NCBI RefSeq assembly: GCF_004114375.1
Contig: NZ_CP034692.1
Coordinates: forward strand, 1,364,001 to 1,428,000
Reading direction: 5' to 3'
DNA: 64,000 nucleotides
Source of the DNA: Halorubrum sp. BOL3-1
GTDB lineage: Archaea; Halobacteriota; Halobacteria; Halobacteriales; Haloferacaceae
The notes under the pieces are model-generated. The model saw nothing but the letters and a program-made list of their open reading frames with translations. It was not told the origin of the DNA and searched no databases. This document shows, in pieces, positions 6,590 to 17,137 of this stretch. Within the stretch, counting starts at the first letter, position 1. Each line of letters opens with the position of its first letter. Both the position numbers and the translations under genes were made by a program.

Positions 6590-7006
6590 TCAGTCCAGAA
6601 ACCGCGATCGGACGTCACCGGACGGGACCATACAGCGGTCCTTCTTGCCGAACCACCGGTATCGGTGTTCGGCGACGAAGTCGTAGACCCGATCGCGGAC
6701 CGAACGCGGGACGTATCGGAACGGCGAGAGGAGCCGGTAGCGGCCGCCCAACCCCGTCGCGATCCGGATGATCGCCGCCGACTTCACGTAGCTCTCGCCG
6801 TCTTCGATCAGGACGACCGAATCCAGCTCGTCGGTCGATAGGTCGTGTTCAGCCAGCAGCGCCCGTCCGACGTCCGACTGGAGGGAGGCGAAGCGGTACT
6901 TCTCCTCCGTGTCGCGGGGAACGACGAACCGGACGAACCCGCTACAGAGATTACAGACGCCGTCGAAGAGGATGATCGGGTCGTCGTCCGGAATCTCCGC
7001 GGTCAT
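6590..7006 (-). CDS. DCC family thiol-disulfide oxidoreductase (DUF393)
   Basis: A 138-residue protein of the DCC/DUF393 family, a small thioredoxin-like group. The signature FDGVCNLCSGFV (about residues 13-24) holds the Asp and the CxxC redox pair that name the family. The C-terminal part RYRWFGKKDRCMVP is the other conserved block. It is predicted to be cytosolic or membrane-associated. It is head-to-head with an HTTM-domain membrane protein starting at 7174. Genome links between DCC and HTTM proteins are known and suggest a shared membrane redox or carboxylase-related process. Start ATG at 7006 fits the family. The partner relation is inferred. Confidence 0.85.
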   Translation of the reverse strand: MTAEIPDDDPIILFDGVCNLCSGFVRFVVPRDTEEKYRFASLQSDVGRALLAEHDLSTDELDSVVLIEDGESYVKSAAIIRIATGLGGRYRLLSPFRYVPRSVRDRVYDFVAEHRYRWFGKKDRCMVPSGDVRSRFLD

Positions 7007-7173
7007 CAGTTGGCTACCCTTCGAAGCCGTCCCAATTCATGCTTCCGGTCGATCCGGTTCCGAATTTCGCCCAGACCGGCCGCGCGTTTTCGAATCGAGT
7101 GCGGGGGTGCGCCACTACGCCAAGCTTATGCCGGTCGAAACTGGAAACTCGTTGAACGACGAACCACGATACC

Positions 7174-9271: not shown

Positions 9272-9685
9272 TCACGTCAGCAGGTCCCAGGCGTACACCG
9301 CGGCGGCGATCGGGACGGGGACGGACAGCGCGACGACGGCGGGCGCGTGCCACACCAGCCAGAGGTGGTCGCGGAACACCGGACTCGGCTCGATCGCCGT
9401 CGCCCACGTCGCCGCGCTCAGGGTCGTGGCGACGCCGAGCACGACCGCCACGCCGGCGAGCGTTCCGGGGTCGACGTTCCCCTGTTCCACGGAGGCGATG
9501 ACGACCGCGCTCAGGAGTGCGAACAGCGCGATACCGCCCCAGCCGACGACCCCGGAGGCGTAGTAGTCGGCGAGCTGCGAGGCGTACTCGGGCCCCGAGA
9601 TGACCGCGTACGGCGCGACGAGCGCGACGACGGTGACGACGGCGGCGGCGATTCCCACCCGACGCGAGACGGCGCGGAAGTCCAT
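9272..9685 (-). CDS. Four-helix haloarchaeal membrane protein, function unknown
   Basis: A 137-residue hydrophobic protein with four predicted transmembrane helices: about residues 9-28 (IAAAVVTVVALVAPYAVI), 47-64 (VGWGGIALFALLSAVVIA), 76-95 (LAGVAVVLGVATTLSAATW) and 112-133 (HAPAVVALSVPVPIAAAVYAW). There is no recognised enzyme or transporter motif. It resembles small membrane proteins of unknown function common in Halorubrum and relatives. The ATG start at 9685 is clean. It is convergent with nothing and divergent from the gene at 9797. I assign no function. Confidence 0.65.
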   Translation of the reverse strand: MDFRAVSRRVGIAAAVVTVVALVAPYAVISGPEYASQLADYYASGVVGWGGIALFALLSAVVIASVEQGNVDPGTLAGVAVVLGVATTLSAATWATAIEPSPVFRDHLWLVWHAPAVVALSVPVPIAAAVYAWDLLT

Positions 9686-9796
9686 GTGCCTCCTCGGAGC
9701 GGAGCCGCGGTAAAAGAAGCGGATCGAGTACGTCGAGCGAATCGCGGCGGGCCCCGTTCCCGTAGCGTTTTGCCCCGGCGGCCCCCACGACCGGAC

Positions 9797-10255
9797 ATGT
9801 CACTCGACGTCGACCCGCCGGAGCCGCCCGAACTCGCCGCCGTCGACCCGAACGAGTACGAGGACGCCGAGGTCTCGGGCGGCGAGTACCGCCGCGACGA
9901 CCTGGAAGCATTGCTCCGGGAGGGCGCGTGGGAGGAAGCGTTCGACGAGTGGGCCGCCGGCAGCGACATGGACGAGACGGACTGGGAGATCGCGCTCGAT
10001 CTCGATCTGGTCTCCCGGTTCGACTTCTTTTGGGACGACTTCGCAGATCGGGTCGGCTACCACGCGCCCGGGCTGCCCGAGGACTGGAAGGAGCGCGACC
10101 TCCACCCGGAGTTGGGCTCGTGGGGGACGGTCTCCGCGATCAACGCCGGCCTCACCGAACTCGGGCAGACCGTCTGCGAGACGCTCAAATCGGAGTACAT
10201 CGACTGGGAGGCCGAGTTCGAGGCGCCGGACGACCTCCCGGACTTCGAGACGTAG
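9797..10255 (+). CDS. Conserved acidic haloarchaeal protein, function unknown
   Basis: A 152-residue strongly acidic soluble protein. It has a Tyr/Asp-rich N-terminus (PPELAAVDPNEYEDAEVSGG) and a helical middle (LEALLREGAWEEAFDEWAA). A Trp/Phe-rich block DFFWDDFADRVGYHAPGLP lies near residues 75-93, and a conserved-looking end SINAGLTELGQTVCETL near 117. The ATG at 9797 is chosen because the in-frame upstream extension is Arg-rich noncoding sequence and the TATA-like region lies just upstream. No domain is recognised. The composition fits a genuine housekeeping-type unknown of haloarchaea. Confidence 0.7.
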   Translation: MSLDVDPPEPPELAAVDPNEYEDAEVSGGEYRRDDLEALLREGAWEEAFDEWAAGSDMDETDWEIALDLDLVSRFDFFWDDFADRVGYHAPGLPEDWKERDLHPELGSWGTVSAINAGLTELGQTVCETLKSEYIDWEAEFEAPDDLPDFET

Positions 10256-10325
10256 CGGGCGGCAAACGGTTCGACTGCCGGCGCGACCGCGACGCGCGCA
10301 CCGTCGGTCTCGTCGCTTAGTGCGC

Positions 10326-10583
10326 TCAGAGGTTCCCGTCCGGATCGTACCGCGCGTCCATGGTCCGGTCCCACTGCGTGTCGGAGAGGTCGAGGTCGGT
10401 CGCGGCGACGTTCTCGTCGGGCTGGTCGACCTCGGCCGCGACCTCGCGGACCGCGTCGAGGAGTTCGTGCGACTCCTCGCGGCCGGTCTCCACGACGCCG
10501 TCCGTCTCGCGACCGAACCGCCACGTCCCGAGGCAAAGCTCCGAGGCGCTGAGTCCCGTGTTCCCGAGCCGTCGGTAGTCCAT
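10326..10583 (-). pseudogene. Aldo/keto reductase remnant with internal deletions
   Basis: The 85-codon open frame starts like a full aldo/keto reductase: [20 protein letters not shown] then WRFGRETDG. After about residue 44 it jumps to [10 protein letters not shown], which in intact family members lies near residue 250. It then jumps again to [17 protein letters not shown], the family C-terminus. The catalytic Asp/Tyr/Lys/His region and the whole barrel core (some 200 residues) are absent. Frame is kept, so it might still be translated, but it cannot be a reductase. I infer at least two in-frame deletions. It sits at the left border of the accessory island. Confidence 0.75.
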
Positions 10584-10860
10584 GCGGGCACGTCCCCGGA
10601 CGGATAGCTGAAATCCGCGTCTACACGGGCCGGCTTGGAACTCGTCAAGAGCCGTCTGGTTGCGCTACGGCAACTACACGTTGCGGGAATTCTCGCCGAA
10701 TACGAGGCGAACTCGTCAGCAGAGCCGTCCTGAACGCAGACTCGACCCGGACAGACAGCGTGCGCCAGCTATCGGAAGTTCCCATAGTCGCAGTGGTTCA
10801 AGAGAACGAACCACTCATCGTAGCCGCCAGATTGACTTTTTTCCACTCGTATGTTACCAC
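10584..10860 (+). other. Intergenic region with possible decayed coding sequence and inverted repeat
   Basis: Before the zinc-finger gene, two protein-like stretches can be read in different plus-strand frames: [20 protein letters not shown] (about 10640-10715) and SVRQLSEVPIVAVVQENEPL (about 10758-10820). They may be fragments of one frameshifted gene, but I cannot name it. An inverted repeat AGTGGTTC (10792-10799) / GAACCACT (10808-10815) with an 8-nt loop lies about 45 bp before the start of the next gene and could be an operator or hairpin. Confidence 0.3.
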
Positions 10861-11022
10861 ATGACGCGTCGAATCCGCTGTAACGAGTGCGACCTCGATC
10901 GACGTTTGGACGACTGTATTACCGCTCACAAACAGGCGAAAGAACACGAGGCCAACTACACCGACCACTGGGTCGTCCTCTACGATCCACCAGACGGAGA
11001 CCCGCCTCTTGCCAACGGTTAG
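10861..11022 (+). CDS. Small C2H2-type zinc finger protein
   Basis: A 53-residue protein starting at ATG 10861. Its core CNECDLDRRLDDCITAHKQ then AKEH has the spacing C-x2-C-x12-H-x5-H, exactly that of a classical C2H2 zinc finger. Haloarchaea encode many very small zinc-finger proteins, several linked to regulation, but this one cannot be assigned a target. An in-frame extension upstream to 10660 exists but is Arg/Ser-rich and unlike a protein domain, so the short start is preferred. It is the first gene of the lower-GC island and is followed on the same strand by the HAD-like gene. Confidence 0.65.
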   Translation: MTRRIRCNECDLDRRLDDCITAHKQAKEHEANYTDHWVVLYDPPDGDPPLANG

Positions 11023-11149
11023 CGGCCTGGCACTGAGCGGTTCTCCGGACGTTCGGGAGGATCACTGACGGGGTCGACTGCCCAACTTGTCTGTCGTCTC
11101 TGCTGTCGGCGTCAACGGGGATTAACCACCGGCAACTCCAACGGAACCC

Positions 11150-11671
11150 ATGCGAGAGCCCGTGCTTTGTTTCGACAGGGACAGAACAATCGACGTGAGC
11201 CCGCCGGAACGCGGCCCTGCGGTACCACTTAGTTGGGTTCAGTATTACGCTCACTGCACGGAGCACGACGTCTGGGCGACCGGGAATCCACGGCTGTGTC
11301 GCGAGGCCGGAATCCCCTCACCGCGCGAGGCGCGGGAGCTGCTCGATACCGCTAGTTACGAGCCGGTAGCGCCATACGACCGGATGAACTCCGGCCGGAT
11401 CGACCGTCTTCGCCTGCTCGACCAGCTCTACGAGGAGAGCTACGACGGGAACGTCGAGTTCGTCGTCGTGGATGACACCGACGTGACCGAGTACACGGAC
11501 GGTCGGTCGTGGTCATACTATCCACCGGCGGAGTTTGTCATCGCCGTGAAGGCCGGAGCATATCCCACGCCGGACACCGCCGTCGTCAGCGGGAACCCGT
11601 ATCGAACTCCGGAACACGGCGACTGCTACCGACCGCAATTGGATCGGTTCAAACGACGACTCTCGGAGTGA
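11150..11671 (+). CDS. HAD-like haloarchaeal protein
   Basis: A 173-residue protein with a HAD-type motif I near the N-terminus: CFDRDRTID (residues 7-15), giving DxDxT. It continues with PAVPLSWVQYYAHCTEHDVWATGN, a pattern I recall from haloarchaeal HAD-like proteins of unknown substrate. A second acidic cluster VVVDDTDVTEY is near residues 104-114. The canonical late HAD motifs (Lys and DD) are not obvious, so phosphatase activity is uncertain. It is 127 bp after the zinc-finger gene and 71 bp before the ParB-like-fold gene on the same strand, suggesting one transcription unit. Confidence 0.6.
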   Translation: MREPVLCFDRDRTIDVSPPERGPAVPLSWVQYYAHCTEHDVWATGNPRLCREAGIPSPREARELLDTASYEPVAPYDRMNSGRIDRLRLLDQLYEESYDGNVEFVVVDDTDVTEYTDGRSWSYYPPAEFVIAVKAGAYPTPDTAVVSGNPYRTPEHGDCYRPQLDRFKRRLSE

Positions 11672-11742: not shown

Positions 11743-12423
11743 ATGGAATGGCAGGCGGACCCGCACGCACATCTCCCCTTAAAAGAGTGGAAGCGAACCA
11801 AGCGCCTCCAGCGACCGGCTGACCCATTTACGATCCGACACGTCGACCCCGACCGAATCGAACACGTCACCGTCTACACCGACACGGTGGATAAGGCACA
11901 GGACGGCGAACGACACCCGGTTTTCACACCGTTGAATACCCGATTTGCCGGCTTCTTCCAGACCGCGCGCGCGGGGGCAGTCCTCCGGGGTGAATGGGAC
12001 CGCCGATCGATCCCGTTCGACGAGTATATCCCATACGTAGGACTCCGTCGGCATTTCGCTGACGGGGTCGACTGGGAGGCGACACAATACTATCAGAATA
12101 TCATCGACTGTATTACTAACGGAGCGCCGCTGTGGGGCTGTGAGACCGAAGCGGAGTTCCGTGAACGCTGTGAAGAGCTGGATCGACTGTACGACCGGAT
12201 CGACCGCGAGGGGTACCGGTCAGCCGGCGAACTCAGAGACGGGAAACTCCAGTACGACGAGGTCGCGATCAACGTCGGTCGCGACGGACACCTCCTGTTT
12301 AATGACGGGAAACATCGCCTCTCGATGGCGAAGTTGCTCAATGTGGATACAGTCCCGGTTCGGGTGATCGTTCGACATCAAGAGTGGGTTGCGGGTTCCG
12401 ACCCCGAGTTCCCTTCGACATAG
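11743..12423 (+). CDS. ParB-like-fold protein of unknown function
   Basis: A 226-residue protein. The C-terminal segment EVAINVGRDGHLLFNDGKHR with SMAKLLNVDTVPVRVIVRH (about residues 168-207) resembles the ParB/sulfiredoxin-type nucleotide-binding fold, where GxHR-like motifs bind or hydrolyse nucleotides. The N-terminal half has an acidic linker and DPDRIEHVTVYTD. Similar proteins occur, as far as I recall, beside glycosyltransferase and sulfatase genes in haloarchaea, so a role in envelope or glycan metabolism is more likely than plasmid partition. It is convergent with the sulfatase gene (12486). A TATA-like TTATAAATAC lies at 11712-11721. The fold call is tentative. Confidence 0.5.
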   Translation: MEWQADPHAHLPLKEWKRTKRLQRPADPFTIRHVDPDRIEHVTVYTDTVDKAQDGERHPVFTPLNTRFAGFFQTARAGAVLRGEWDRRSIPFDEYIPYVGLRRHFADGVDWEATQYYQNIIDCITNGAPLWGCETEAEFRERCEELDRLYDRIDREGYRSAGELRDGKLQYDEVAINVGRDGHLLFNDGKHRLSMAKLLNVDTVPVRVIVRHQEWVAGSDPEFPST

Positions 12424-12485: not shown

Positions 12486-13865
12486 TCAGGCGTAGCCGAG
12501 TTCCTCCAGCCGGCGTCGAACTTCCGGGGGAACAGAACTCGTCTCGTCGCCGTCACGGTTGTCCGGAACGGCCTCTCGGAGGGTAGCCACCTCTTCTTGC
12601 GGGCTCTCGATAGGTGGCGTGCCGACCTCACGCCATCCGTCGTTGGTCTCGAACCCGTAATATCCGTCCGCGACCAACCCTCGGTATTCCACATCGACGC
12701 TATCGATCACAGCGGGCGTATAGCCCCGTTCACGGAGCGTTTCGCGGCGCATCGTCGCGACGCCGTTGTACTCGGTGAGATACGTCACACTCCGCTCGTC
12801 GTCGACCGCTCGGAGGTCCCGGCCGCGCCGGTCCGGGTCCGTACCGTCGGCGAGCGACAACACGGTGTGATAGACGTCGAGCAGCGACACCGGTGCGTCC
12901 GTCCGCCCGTCGGAAAAGTCCGGGCCGGTGACGACCAGCGGGACGTTCGTTACCTCGGGATATACCCCGTAGCCGTGTTCCCAGACACCGTGTTCACCGA
13001 ACAGTTCGCCGTGGTCACCGAGCGTGACGACGTAGTCGAATTCTGCTGACAGCGCATCGAACGCCTCGCGGTAGACGTCGCTTAGGTACCGCACGGAGTC
13101 CTCGTATGCGGTTCGTGCTCGGTCCGCGTCCGGTTGAGCGTGCTCTCTGTCAACACCGTCTGCTAACGCGTCGTCAGGGTCATCAAATCTGTTGCGAAGC
13201 GTCGCCTCGAAAGCGGGCCCCATGTCGTACGGCTCACCCGACCGGTACGACGGGGGCGCACGGTACGGCTGGTGTGCCTCCATGAGATTCGCGAACAGGA
13301 ACGTTGGTCCCGACGGCGACAGCGATTCCGCTAGACTCCGGAACCGCCCGGCGCCGTCGTCGTCGTCACCCAGCGAAGTCCCCGCGAGCGCCTCCGCGAC
13401 ACCGAACCGGAGCGAGCGTCCGGTATCGTATCCTCGACCCATTGCCGCGGCCGCTCCCGTCAGGTACGCCAGTCGCGGATGCTCGTGTTCCTCCAGATGG
13501 CGATACCAATTGAACACCGACGATTTCGGGTACTCTGTGTCTCGTGTTCCCTCGAACACGTCGAATCCGCGATCGTATCCGTATGCGGGCGAGACGTTGA
13601 TGTTCGCGGAGAATGCGCGTGTCCGGTAGCCTGCCGCCCCGAGCTGTTCGGCGAGAACGCGATCCGGTGTCGAGAGCGCCCAGTCGGCAACGGTCACGTT
13701 TGCCTCGCTGGGATACATGCCAGTGAACAGAGAGGCGTGTGCGCCACCCGTCCAGTGACTCGTCGAGTACGCCGCATCGAACCAAGTCCCGGGGAGCCAC
13801 TCGAATGCCTCGTTAAAGGCGTCCGAGCGGACGGTGTCCAGTACGACGACCGCGATGTTTGTCAC
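12486..13865 (-). CDS. Sulfatase family hydrolase (alkaline phosphatase superfamily)
   Basis: A 459-residue sulfatase-fold protein. The N-terminus VVVLDTVRSDAF supplies the first metal Asp. The nucleophile region reads STSHWTGGAHASLFTGM (about residues 36-52). Aligned to the CxPSRxSLLTG motif of formylglycine sulfatases, Cys becomes Thr and Arg becomes His, as in Thr-nucleophile phosphotransferases or phosphonate hydrolases of the superfamily. LGDHGELFGEHGVWEHGYGV (near residue 285) is the second metal site. The start is GTG at 13865. It has no clear signal peptide, so it may act in the cytosol. It diverges from the GTP cyclohydrolase operon. The substrate, a sulfate or phosphate ester, is not determinable. 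Confidence 0.8.
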   Translation of the reverse strand: MTNIAVVVLDTVRSDAFNEAFEWLPGTWFDAAYSTSHWTGGAHASLFTGMYPSEANVTVADWALSTPDRVLAEQLGAAGYRTRAFSANINVSPAYGYDRGFDVFEGTRDTEYPKSSVFNWYRHLEEHEHPRLAYLTGAAAAMGRGYDTGRSLRFGVAEALAGTSLGDDDDGAGRFRSLAESLSPSGPTFLFANLMEAHQPYRAPPSYRSGEPYDMGPAFEATLRNRFDDPDDALADGVDREHAQPDADRARTAYEDSVRYLSDVYREAFDALSAEFDYVVTLGDHGELFGEHGVWEHGYGVYPEVTNVPLVVTGPDFSDGRTDAPVSLLDVYHTVLSLADGTDPDRRGRDLRAVDDERSVTYLTEYNGVATMRRETLRERGYTPAVIDSVDVEYRGLVADGYYGFETNDGWREVGTPPIESPQEEVATLREAVPDNRDGDETSSVPPEVRRRLEELGYA

Positions 13866-14074
13866 TATGCTCTTGTTATAATGGAGTACATATATATATC
13901 ACGTCAGGTCAGGCAGGCGTATTTATCAATTAATTAGCGTACGAAACGTCCTATTTATACTGTTAATTAAATATTACATTTTATTCGAGAGGCTACGCTC
14001 CCTTGTTCCTCTTCAAATGTTCTCCTCATGTAGGGGTATATTTTAATTGATTTGAACGCTTATGACCGTTAGTC
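13866..14074 (+). promoter_or_regulatory. AT-rich divergent promoter region
   Basis: This 209-bp gap is far more AT-rich than the surrounding genome and separates two divergent starts. TATATTTTAA at 14037-14046 is 29-38 bp upstream of the GTG of the GTP cyclohydrolase gene, right for a leaderless haloarchaeal transcript. On the other strand the run of TA repeats at about 13889-13899 lies 25-35 bp upstream of the sulfatase start. Further AT blocks (about 13920-13985) have no assigned role. Confidence 0.6.
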
Positions 14075-14866
14075 GTGACAAGTAACGCAAACACGGTTCG
14101 GATTTCAGTCGTCCAACTTGACGAGTATGGCCCATGGACTGTCGAGCCAGCGCCGCGGCGGGAGACGGATCTACAAGCGCTTCAGGCGCGTCTCTACGCT
14201 GACTTCGCGGACTTCGTCGGCCGCAGCGACGGATACGCGTTTTTCAACCGATTTGATAACATGCTCGGTGTCACCAACAACATCGATGCCGAAGAATACG
14301 AGCGGTTTCAAGAGCGTGTTCGTAACCGCTATCCGGTCACTGTCAGCGTCGGCATCGGGGAGCGGGAGACACCGGTCGAAGCGGTTGAAGCGGCGAGCAC
14401 ACAGCTTCAGGCCGCGGGGAGCGCCCAAGATCCCGAAAGACGAGAAGTACTTCGCGCAAGTGAAACGACCGATTCCACCGGCGATATCACGGTCGGGCAC
14501 TTCGACATCGTCGATGTGACGGGATCGTTCACCGACAACGAACACGCTGCAGCGGCCGGACTCGCGATACAACAGGCGATGGTCGCTCTCAGACAGCGAC
14601 TCCTGTCCGAGTACGACAGTATCGCACAGTTCGTCGGTGGAGACAACATGATCGCCGTCTGCCCGTCACTAAGTGAGGACACGTTCGGAGACATCGTTGA
14701 CCACGTATACGACCAGACCGGCGTCGAATATCAGGTCGGTATCGGTTCGGGACCGACGGCTCACGCGGCGGGCGGACAGGCGAAGCAGGCTCTCGAACAC
14801 TGTAGGGAGACTGGAACAAGGGTCCACGAGGCTATGGCGGTCCACCAACGGGCAACGGATGACTGA
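14075..14866 (+). CDS. GTP cyclohydrolase IIa (GCH III), probable second copy
   Basis: A 263-residue GTP cyclohydrolase IIa. This archaeal enzyme opens the GTP imidazole ring but keeps the formyl group, giving the FAPy ribose monophosphate. The protein shows the two tandem palm-like (GGDEF-related) halves of the family: RFDNMLGVTNNID near 61-73 and FVGGDNMIAVCP near 189-200, with VSVGIGERETPVEA and QVGIGSGPTAHAAGGQA as the matching second strands. The GTG start at 14075 follows the TATA box by 29 bp. It overlaps the next gene in ATGACTGA. The riboflavin/F420 copy is presumably elsewhere, so this island copy probably serves a dedicated pathway. Confidence 0.88.
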   Translation: MTSNANTVRISVVQLDEYGPWTVEPAPRRETDLQALQARLYADFADFVGRSDGYAFFNRFDNMLGVTNNIDAEEYERFQERVRNRYPVTVSVGIGERETPVEAVEAASTQLQAAGSAQDPERREVLRASETTDSTGDITVGHFDIVDVTGSFTDNEHAAAAGLAIQQAMVALRQRLLSEYDSIAQFVGGDNMIAVCPSLSEDTFGDIVDHVYDQTGVEYQVGIGSGPTAHAAGGQAKQALEHCRETGTRVHEAMAVHQRATDD

Positions 14867-15872
14867 ACAGGCACTCGTCTTCACCGGTGAACGAGAGGTC
14901 TCCACCCAGCAGGTGGATACGCCTGCCCCCGGCGAGAACGAAGTGAGTGTTGACGCCGACGTGTCGGCGATCAGTTCGGGAACGGAACTGTTGATTTACC
15001 GTGACGAAGCGCCAACCGGGATCACGGCTGACTCGTCGTTAGAGACACTGAACGGCGACCTTTCGTATCCACTCAAATACGGCTACTCGCTGGTCGGAAC
15101 TGTTACCGACGTAGGGGGCAACGTTGAAAACGCATGGATGGGTCGTGAGGTCATCGCGTTTCACCCACATCAAACTCGATTCACGGTCGCAACGGACAGC
15201 CTCACGCCGCTCCCGCCAGACCTCGACCAGCGCGCCGGTACTCTGTTCCCGTCAGTTGAGACGGCCACGAACTTTCTGCTCGACGGTGCCCCGAAAGTCG
15301 GCGAACGGGTGGCTGTGTTCGGTGCCGGCGTCATCGGCCTGTGTACTACTCGATTGCTCGCGGAGTTTCCGCTCGACTCACTGGTTGTCGTCGAACCGCG
15401 TTCCTCGCGGCGCGAGTTAGCGCGTGCGTTCGGCGCCGACGAGACGATACCACCGGGAGAAGTCGACGCGCTGTTCGACTCCGTAGAGGGCGATCACGGG
15501 TCCGCTGATCTCGTTTACGAGCTGTCCGGTCAGCCGGAAGTGCTCAACGACGCAATTGACGTCGTCGGTTACGACGGTCGGATCGTAGTCGGATCGTGGT
15601 ACGGCTCGAAACGGTCGGCACTCAACCTCGGAGAGTCGTTTCACCGTGACCGCATCGACATTATTTCGAGCCAAGTGAGCACGATCGATCCGACGCTCCG
15701 CGGTCGATGGTCGAAGAAGCGACGCACGCAGGTTGGTCTTGATAACCTTCGTCTGATCGACCACAATTCGTTGATAACCGACGTGGTTCCGTTCGAACGG
15801 GCCCGAAACGCCTACGAACGGCTTGATGAGACGACTGAAGGGACAATTCAAGTGCTCCTCTCGTACGACTGA
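14859..15872 (+). CDS. Zinc-less MDR superfamily dehydrogenase
   Basis: A 337-residue medium-chain dehydrogenase/reductase. The Rossmann part has VAVFGAGVIGLCTTRLLAEF near residues 150-169, then an acidic end VVVEP, suggesting NAD preference. The usual catalytic zinc ligands are missing: the Cys position reads AISSGTELLIY and the GHE motif reads LKYGYSLVGTVTDVG. The family-specific blocks VGSWYGSKRSALNLG and SSQVSTIDPTLRGRWSKK match, as far as I recall, a group annotated as zinc-binding alcohol dehydrogenase that often neighbours PTPS-like genes. The ATG at 14859 overlaps the cyclohydrolase stop by 8 nt (ATGACTGA), so translation is coupled. The substrate is unknown and may be a pterin or pyrimidine side chain. 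Confidence 0.82.
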   Translation: MTEQALVFTGEREVSTQQVDTPAPGENEVSVDADVSAISSGTELLIYRDEAPTGITADSSLETLNGDLSYPLKYGYSLVGTVTDVGGNVENAWMGREVIAFHPHQTRFTVATDSLTPLPPDLDQRAGTLFPSVETATNFLLDGAPKVGERVAVFGAGVIGLCTTRLLAEFPLDSLVVVEPRSSRRELARAFGADETIPPGEVDALFDSVEGDHGSADLVYELSGQPEVLNDAIDVVGYDGRIVVGSWYGSKRSALNLGESFHRDRIDIISSQVSTIDPTLRGRWSKKRRTQVGLDNLRLIDHNSLITDVVPFERARNAYERLDETTEGTIQVLLSYD

Positions 15873-15875
15873 ATT

Positions 15876-16292
15876 ATGCCAGCCAACACCACGACTGACA
15901 CCAACGACGGAACGTGCGAACTGATGGTCAAGCGGGAATTCATCGCACAGCACTATTTGACCGTCCCTGACCCGGAACCGCCCGAAGGAGATGTCCACAG
16001 CCATCAGTTCACGATCGAGGTCGAGTTTGCCGCCGACTCGCTCGGCGAGTACGGATATCTCGTGAACATCAACGAAGTCGAGACGCTACTCGACGACATT
16101 GAGGAGCGATACCGGGATACACTGCTCAACGACCTTCCGGAGTTCGAGGGGATGAACCCGAGCGTCGAGCGCTTCGCTCGCATTGTCTGTGACAGATTTT
16201 GTGCGGACCTCCCCGATGATAATCCAGACGAAGTGACAGTTCGGATCTGGGAGGACGACCTCGCGTGGGCGAGTCATCAGAGGACAGTATGA
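15876..16292 (+). CDS. 6-pyruvoyltetrahydropterin synthase-like protein
   Basis: A 138-residue PTPS/QueD-family T-fold protein. The zinc histidines are visible: AQHYL (His26) and HSHQF (His41, His43). Further family features are FTIEVEF and the conserved end RIWEDDLAWASH. In most PTPS/QueD enzymes a Cys sits four residues before the first His of HGH; here that position is Glu37 (EGDVHSH), reminiscent of PTPS-III type enzymes. The activity may therefore differ from QueD or eukaryotic PTPS. The gene starts 3 bp after the MDR stop and overlaps the methyltransferase as ATGA. In context it should act on the product of the upstream GTP cyclohydrolase; this is inference. Confidence 0.82.
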   Translation: MPANTTTDTNDGTCELMVKREFIAQHYLTVPDPEPPEGDVHSHQFTIEVEFAADSLGEYGYLVNINEVETLLDDIEERYRDTLLNDLPEFEGMNPSVERFARIVCDRFCADLPDDNPDEVTVRIWEDDLAWASHQRTV

Positions 16293-17137
16293 ACCATGCC
16301 CGTATCAGGTACTTAGAGTCGAAACGCAGCGTCGACGAGCGATCGCGTTCCCGTCGCGTGTCGGACCGGTTATTCGAGGCTCTCCCTGAAGCGCCGACCG
16401 TCGGCGAAGCCGGCGCCGGAACCGGGACGACGGTACCGTGGTTGCTTGAACGAGGGGTAACTGCCGGATCGTATCGAGGCATCGACCTCTCTCCGACGGT
16501 AGTCGCTCACGCGCAGTCCACCCAGCCGGCCGTACTCCGGCGTCGCGGGTACGACGCTGTCGACCACGAGACCGGGGGCGCCGTCGAGACGTTTTGGTTC
16601 GAGTTCGAGGTCGGCGATGCGTTACAGCTCCTGAACGACCAGACCTACGACGTCGTCATCGCTCAGCAGTTCATGGATCTCGTCTCGCTTGAGCCCGCTG
16701 TCGACGCGCTAACAGCGGCGGTCAAGGACGGGGGTCTCGTGTACTGTCCGTTGACTTTCGACGGTGTGACGCTTTTTCAGCCGGATCACCCGGCTGACGA
16801 CGAGGTACAGCGGGCGTACCACGAGGCGATCGACTCCTCGGCCGATCGAGATGCCCGTGCGGGTCGACACCTGATCGACGAATTCAGCGGCCGAGCCGGG
16901 TCGTTACTCGCCGTCGATGCCTCAGACGCCGTTGTCCATCCCCGAAACGGAGAGTACCCTGACGACGAGCGCTACTTTTTGAATTGCTTACTTGAATTCG
17001 TTGAGGAGTCGGTCTCCGTGGAGACGGTCCGGGAAGTCAAAGACTGGCTGTCAGCGAGGCGCGACCAGCTCGCAGACGGCTGCCTCTCGTACGTCGGACA
17101 CAGATACGACTTTTTGTACCGAACAGGTGCGAAGTGA
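16289..17137 (+). CDS. Class I SAM-dependent methyltransferase
   Basis: A 282-residue methyltransferase. Motif I EAGAGTGTTVPWLLERG (about residues 40-56) binds SAM. The next strand ends YRGIDLSP, and YDVVIAQQFMDLVSL near 125 is motif IV. The C-terminal part has EYPDDERYFLNCLLEFVEES, which may bind substrate. The ATG at 16289 is chosen because it overlaps the PTPS-like stop as ATGA; an in-frame GTG at 16265 is also possible and would add eight residues. As the last gene of the four-gene operon it probably methylates the pathway product. The acceptor atom and molecule are unknown. Confidence 0.8.
   Translation: MNHARIRYLESKRSVDERSRSRRVSDRLFEALPEAPTVGEAGAGTGTTVPWLLERGVTAGSYRGIDLSPTVVAHAQSTQPAVLRRRGYDAVDHETGGAVETFWFEFEVGDALQLLNDQTYDVVIAQQFMDLVSLEPAVDALTAAVKDGGLVYCPLTFDGVTLFQPDHPADDEVQRAYHEAIDSSADRDARAGRHLIDEFSGRAGSLLAVDASDAVVHPRNGEYPDDERYFLNCLLEFVEESVSVETVREVKDWLSARRDQLADGCLSYVGHRYDFLYRTGAK

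Follow-up and report, generated by a model that had tools for sequence, protein, structure and literature searches.

In the ArfA/ArfB/ArfC entry into riboflavin and F420 synthesis, the first enzyme is a GTP cyclohydrolase III (GCH III), and in COG0720 the proteins QueD, PTPS-II and PTPS-III (PTPS, 6-pyruvoyl-tetrahydropterin synthase) share a T-fold and a glutamate, Glu110. A further member of this fold, SCO6650 of Streptomyces coelicolor (PDB 3d7j), is recorded as an 'uncharacterized' PTPS homologue; we take it to have neither zinc nor the catalytic triad, and SCO6655, encoded near it, is presumably a GTP cyclohydrolase II (GCH II) with Met120. Here we analyse an operon from a 64,000-nucleotide (nt) stretch of Halorubrum sp. 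BOL3-1 (contig NZ_CP034692.1, positions 1,364,001 to 1,428,000; hereafter the window), on the 3.67-Mb chromosome C3 of a genome (G000) that is 99% complete. The operon encodes a GCH III (gene gch3), a dehydrogenase of the medium-chain dehydrogenase/reductase (MDR) superfamily, a PTPS/T-fold protein and a methyltransferase (Table 1). Our reading, to which we assign a probability of about 0.72, is that it represents a mobile form, found in haloarchaea, of a biosynthetic cluster that occurs in both archaea and bacteria and yields a GTP-derived metabolite. A search of the available literature found no published description of this cluster, though one may exist; parts of it have been recognised before (SCO6650; PTPS-IV to VI of COG0720), so we do not call it categorically new.

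Comparison with these systems reveals partial likeness. The haloarchaeal cluster shares its first enzyme family, GCH III, with the Arf route, and possible functional counterparts of all three Arf enzymes occur in bacterial clusters (GCH II, a creatininase-family protein and a RibD/ArfC-type reductase). However, the cluster continues with MDR, PTPS-fold, family-4 glycosyltransferase (GT4), methyltransferase and CDP-alcohol enzymes, no lumazine or riboflavin synthase was seen in it, and a separate housekeeping cyclohydrolase is usually encoded elsewhere in the host. Over almost its full length, the bacterial cluster PTPS aligns with SCO6650 (E 6e-79), to which the Streptomyces cluster protein is almost identical, whereas the haloarchaeal PTPS keeps three zinc histidines, has Glu in place of Cys and pairs with GCH III instead of GCH II. 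QueD, PTPS-II and PTPS-III have the T-fold and Glu110 in common with the cluster PTPS but not their motifs: the PTPS-I/II/III motifs CxxxHGH, CxxxxxHGH and ExxHGH (PMC5041015) occur in neither the window PTPS (ExxxHSH) nor the bacterial cluster PTPS (AxxxHGA). For the MDR, the best curated model is the bacteriochlorophyllide dehydrogenase BchC, at 64 bits against a cut-off of 291, but no bacteriochlorophyll genes were seen in the cluster.

We compared 40 haloarchaeal loci around PTPS homologues and surveyed copy numbers in 97 related genomes. The genes recurring around PTPS encode MDR (34 loci), methyltransferase (31), GT4 (22), CDP-alcohol phosphotransferase (21), a DUF7475 membrane protein (20), GCH III (18), sulfatase-like proteins of families F10 and F11 (13) and a Gfo/Idh plus aldo/keto-reductase protein (12; a fusion in the examples inspected). 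All four operon genes occur together in 13 of the 40 loci, one of them with a truncated gch3, so the combination is not a rarity of the window. GCH III near PTPS in 18 of 40 loci compares with approximately 0.2 expected by chance, which rules out a chance neighbourhood of the two. Family F7, recurring in haloarchaeal clusters, is a Gfo/Idh/MocA oxidoreductase fused to an aldo/keto reductase (L077, 6939–8909).

Bacterial loci were obtained by an MDR scan with a two-sequence bacterial alignment, from which 80 of 402 relatives were kept. These loci carry PTPS (78), glycosyltransferase (71), methyltransferase (70), a RibD-type reductase without the deaminase (44; identity confirmed by family model in one example), GCH II (35), the CDP-alcohol enzyme (28) and a creatininase-family protein (12); annotated examples come from Streptomyces fungicidicus and Methylosinus. 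The statement in the first-pass annotation that this type of MDR often neighbours PTPS-like genes is thus borne out in both domains, by 34 of 40 haloarchaeal and 78 of 80 bacterial loci. The window operon is the haloarchaeal form of a cluster that spans archaea and bacteria, with an MDR–PTPS–glycosyltransferase–methyltransferase core often accompanied by a CDP-alcohol phosphotransferase. We hold with high confidence that this core is coupled to its own GTP cyclohydrolase, which is GCH III in haloarchaea and GCH II in bacteria. An MdoH-like glucosyltransferase (family B4; L074, 10067–11869) is present in 42 of 83 bacterial loci and divergently adjoins the MDR gene in many alphaproteobacteria; it may replace the CDP-alcohol enzyme, which is usually absent from those alphaproteobacterial clusters.

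The operon copy is not the only gch3 of its host, a second one being located at G000:C3:2864059-2864772. Two unsplit gch3 genes are found in 14 of the 97 relatives, in all 14 with the second copy within a few kilobases of the cluster PTPS. In the gch3 tree, cluster copies are scattered among canonical ones; a single clade was rejected (approximately unbiased test, p = 0.0002), and, given the starred branches, the label must have switched between cluster and canonical three or more times. Because cluster copies fall in several places of the tree, GCH III appears to have been repeatedly recruited to, or moved from, the cluster, with probably at least three recruitments in haloarchaea. The window GCH III aligns to the Methanocaldococcus jannaschii (MJ) enzyme (2QV6, E 1e-57), and the acidic (Asp/Glu), Arg and Asn residues conserved in canonical GCH III are also kept in the cluster copies; by family and conserved residues, the operon enzyme is predicted to form the monophosphate of the formylated ring-opened pyrimidine FAPy from GTP.

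The host genome also carries a broken resident copy of the cluster (L252; G000:C3:643000-662000, 9537–11609), at the position that an intact cluster occupies in the relatives L067, L068, L069 and L071. Of its MDR, 83 of approximately 350 amino acids (aa) are left; its PTPS is reduced to 79 aa and has lost the zinc motif, and its methyltransferase has lost the S-adenosylmethionine (SAM)-binding part. The three deletions are internal and apparently in frame, which perhaps preserves translational coupling. The same copy has an undamaged glycosyltransferase (384 aa) and an undamaged CDP-alcohol enzyme (263 aa), both under as much constraint as their counterparts where the cluster is complete. The window operon encodes precisely the three enzymes that are broken at L252, which makes it most readily understood as a replacement module gained by the host and not as a pathway sufficient in itself; we infer that the two loci work together. 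The first-pass annotation had pictured the four genes as a whole pathway, to which GT4 and the CDP-alcohol phosphotransferase, encoded at L252, must be added. A second genome with a window-type operon (G026) has a frameshift-split PTPS, possibly a sequencing error, in its other cluster (L253, G026:C1:173000-192000, ~6634–7007), the remaining genes of which are apparently intact, and in a third (G047) both the window-type and the other version are apparently intact.

Alignment of the cluster proteins revealed altered active sites. Among 44 haloarchaeal PTPS sequences, the three zinc histidines are kept in 43–44, Cys27 is replaced by Glu and His71 by Asp in 43 each, and Asp70 is mostly Arg. Ala replaces both Cys27 and one zinc histidine in all 80 bacterial cluster PTPS sequences, which have Asn, Ala, Arg or Lys at the Asp70 site and Tyr at the His71 site. 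All 124 sequences retain Glu110, the anchor for the 2-amino-4-oxo edge of pterins. An AlphaFold2 model of the window PTPS (pLDDT 81) has the T-fold, with 3d7j as the best PDB match (TM 0.71), followed by QueD (TM ~0.62). The cluster PTPS is a T-fold (COG0720) protein that lost the Cys/Asp/His triad and kept the pterin-anchoring Glu. Across 120 MDR homologues from both domains, Ser39, Tyr76, His104, Glu134, His262 and Arg289 are invariant, and Ser39 and Tyr76 take the places of the zinc-ligand Cys and His in every one, as placed by motif and not by structure. Because this altered site is invariant in both domains, it argues for one shared MDR reaction.

The type of cyclohydrolase bears on what enters the pathway. 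At the position of Escherichia coli Tyr105, the cluster GCH II (RibA) has Met in 8 Streptomyces clusters, the other RibA of those genomes has Tyr (6/6 genomes checked), and the remaining bacterial cluster RibAs have Tyr (27), His (1) or Leu (1). A creatininase-family gene lies beside 9 of the 10 cluster RibAs that lack this Tyr, compared with 4 of the 27 that have it (Fisher p = 5e-5, kinship ignored). Normal Tyr-type GCH II itself deformylates, and SCO6655, with its Met120, reportedly stops at FAPy in work by Bandarian's group. The Streptomyces creatininase-family protein gives its best scores with models of MftE and creatininase, passes no curated cut-off and reaches 37 bits to ArfB against a cut-off of 180. 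It resembles BrbF of Sinorhizobium and Brucella, a creatininase-family enzyme that is a proven FAPy formamidase (PMC9478397), in standing beside a cyclohydrolase whose predicted end product is FAPy, but unlike BrbF it is only a putative deformylase. The Met-type Streptomyces GCH II and its neighbour form a pair pointing to probable FAPy formation followed by deformylation. Since most cluster GCH IIs are of the Tyr type and those without Tyr have a creatininase-family neighbour, the common entry is more likely a deformylated diaminopyrimidine than FAPy, which need not be the PTPS substrate as the first-pass annotation had supposed. In the simplest reading, the diaminopyrimidine comes either from an ordinary GCH II or from a FAPy-forming enzyme together with a deformylase, haloarchaeal GCH III belonging to the second kind.

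We propose a pathway in which GCH III would convert GTP to FAPy-monophosphate, a deformylase of the ArfB/creatininase family encoded elsewhere in the host genome would yield 2,5-diamino-6-ribosylaminopyrimidinone phosphate, and reduction of the ribosyl chain may fall to an ArfC/RibD-type reductase, which many bacterial clusters encode and which in the host is presumably a housekeeping enzyme. The MDR would then oxidise or reduce a side-chain alcohol; the conserved Glu of the PTPS-fold protein would bind the 2-amino-4-oxo-pyrimidine edge, and the protein would complete or tailor a pteridine ring; the methyltransferase would methylate the ring product; and GT4 and the CDP-alcohol phosphotransferase, from L252 in the host, would attach a sugar and a phospho-alcohol or lipid. 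We infer the steps after FAPy and the product class, with moderate confidence in a methylated, glycosylated pteridine or pyrimidine, membrane linkage as a best guess and low confidence in the exact chemistry. A more specific scheme, which is speculative and rather unlikely to hold in full, is a pteridine route that bypasses GTP cyclohydrolase I (GCH I): GCH II or III, deformylation, RibD/ArfC reduction at the ribosyl chain and oxidation of an adjacent hydroxyl by the MDR would jointly amount to the Amadori step of GCH I. The T-fold protein would close the ring, and the product would carry a methyl group, a sugar and a link to a membrane phospho-alcohol, making it a new pterin glycolipid-like class in archaea and bacteria.

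That standard pathways do not explain the cluster is held with high confidence: checks on RibA (riboflavin), CofH (F420) and QueC (archaeosine) support this part of the first-pass annotation. The best-surviving alternative, which we regard as improbable, makes the operon a spare riboflavin/F420 supply, its other genes being passengers of an additional GCH III, or gives the PTPS a part in F420 synthesis, a link cited for archaeal PTPS-IV as unpublished (PMC5041015). The cluster gch3 is indeed the sole copy in six genomes at least 95% complete (G052, G056, G070, G084, G088 and G094), where it must also feed riboflavin and F420 because no other gch3 is present, and deletion of Haloferax volcanii arfA, which may or may not be a cluster copy, is listed as giving riboflavin auxotrophy (PMC8305020). 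Such genomes do not refute a second role for the cluster gch3, and they make riboflavin auxotrophy on deletion not decisive by itself. The GT4, methyltransferase and CDP-alcohol genes, however, fit nowhere in riboflavin or FO synthesis, and at least two RibA genes are present in 16 of 16 bacterial genomes checked. An F420 role of the cluster is rejected on the distribution of the FO synthase component CofH, which has no convincing homologue in 15 of 20 cluster-bearing bacterial genomes and has homologues in haloarchaea without any PTPS (G044, G053 and G062).

A folate-type PTPS-III that uses Glu for the catalytic Cys and makes 6-hydroxymethyl-dihydropterin is a distinctly poor candidate, although the haloarchaeal PTPS combines Glu at Cys27 with kept zinc ligands, the same Cys-to-Glu change underlies the folate activity of Plasmodium PTPS (PMC2229834) and a gap remains in the haloarchaeal folate pathway (PMC8305020). 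The motif spacing of the window PTPS, ExxxHSH, departs from the ExxHGH of PTPS-III, the bacterial cluster PTPS has Ala and is missing one zinc His, the cluster is patchy, with 25 of the 97 relatives having no cluster-type PTPS, and no folate genes recur in the haloarchaeal or bacterial loci. Least probable is a divergent QueD serving preQ0 and archaeosine, as public records imply in annotating the cluster PTPS as 6-carboxytetrahydropterin synthase: the protein is without CxxxHGH and has lost Asp70 and His71, the window PTPS scores 43 bits with the QueD model against a cut-off of 89, QueC survives in the host only as a fragment and no further PTPS is encoded there, and an archaeosine role is rejected on the independence of cluster PTPS from QueC (38/72 versus 10/25, p = 0.35; canonical QueD versus QueC, p = 1e-21). 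The host fragment is an N-terminally incomplete QueC on a smaller contig (G000:C2:58594-59022), and de novo preQ0 synthesis appears to have been lost.

Several points weigh against the cross-domain reading of the operon. One genus includes three genomes (L048, L051 and L058) that have PTPS next to QueC and a radical-SAM gene and encode no separate QueD, making a QueD-like or dual role possible there. GCH III linkage to the cluster is frequent and not obligatory, 22 of the 40 haloarchaeal loci having no linked copy. The association between the Tyr/Met position and the creatininase family rests mainly on one lineage, and the haloarchaeal and bacterial PTPS, which differ at the zinc site, may catalyse different steps. 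In L048, L051 and L058, the order GCH III–PTPS–GT4 stands directly beside QueC, with MDR not within the locus examined.

The operon itself is compact, and its junctions agree with the gene order and overlaps first read from the letters. GCH III and MDR overlap by 8 bp (ATGACTGA), MDR and PTPS are separated by 3 bases, and PTPS and the methyltransferase meet at ATGA. The proposed leaderless-type promoter finds support in a TATA-like element, a similar one being kept in L033–L036, and its spacing is consistent with a predicted leaderless transcript. The AT-rich border is likewise evident, with a GC content of 0.354 in the upstream flank against 0.597 for the operon and 0.68 for the whole window. 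Pfam scores of all four proteins exceed the family cut-offs, and all four genes are under purifying selection, with dN/dS of 0.10–0.19 for each against three relatives; because of these values, pseudogenes are ruled out. The divergent sulfatase-family gene also adjoins the operon in L033–L036 and L040. Two haloarchaeal proteins encoded at 11150–11671 and 11743–12423 of the window are syntenic with the operon in L033–L036, and neither matched a Pfam family.

Table 1 Operon genes, putative promoter element and divergent neighbour, in window positions
Feature	Position	Strand	Details
GTP cyclohydrolase III (GCH III, ArfA-like)	14075–14866	+	GTG start; PF05165 302 bits (cut-off 21.3); NF002587 above cut-off
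BchC-like dehydrogenase of the MDR superfamily, lacking the standard Cys and His ligands of the catalytic zinc	14859–15872	+	Pfam ADH_zinc_N 46 bits
PTPS/T-fold protein	15876–16292	+	PF01242 84 bits
Class I SAM-dependent methyltransferase	16289–17137	+	Methyltransf_11 34 bits; Methyltransf_25
TATA-like element	14037–14049 (approx.)	+	AT-rich TATATTTTAATTG, ~30 nt 5′ of the GTG start
Sulfatase/alkaline-phosphatase-superfamily protein, divergent neighbour, possible accessory	12486–13865	−	PF00884 80 bits

The same core is coupled to unrelated cyclohydrolases in the two domains, GCH III in haloarchaea and two kinds of GCH II in bacteria; that such enzymes were enlisted again and again speaks strongly for a single substrate. 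Scattered genes misannotated as 'QueD', 'alcohol dehydrogenase' and 'GTP cyclohydrolase II' become one testable pathway, for which genetically tractable hosts exist in Streptomyces and Haloferax. If the reading is true, SCO6650, which has a solved structure but no assigned function, would find its explanation in a second genetic route that starts at GTP and leads to a tailored pteridine or pyrimidine, probably linked to the membrane.

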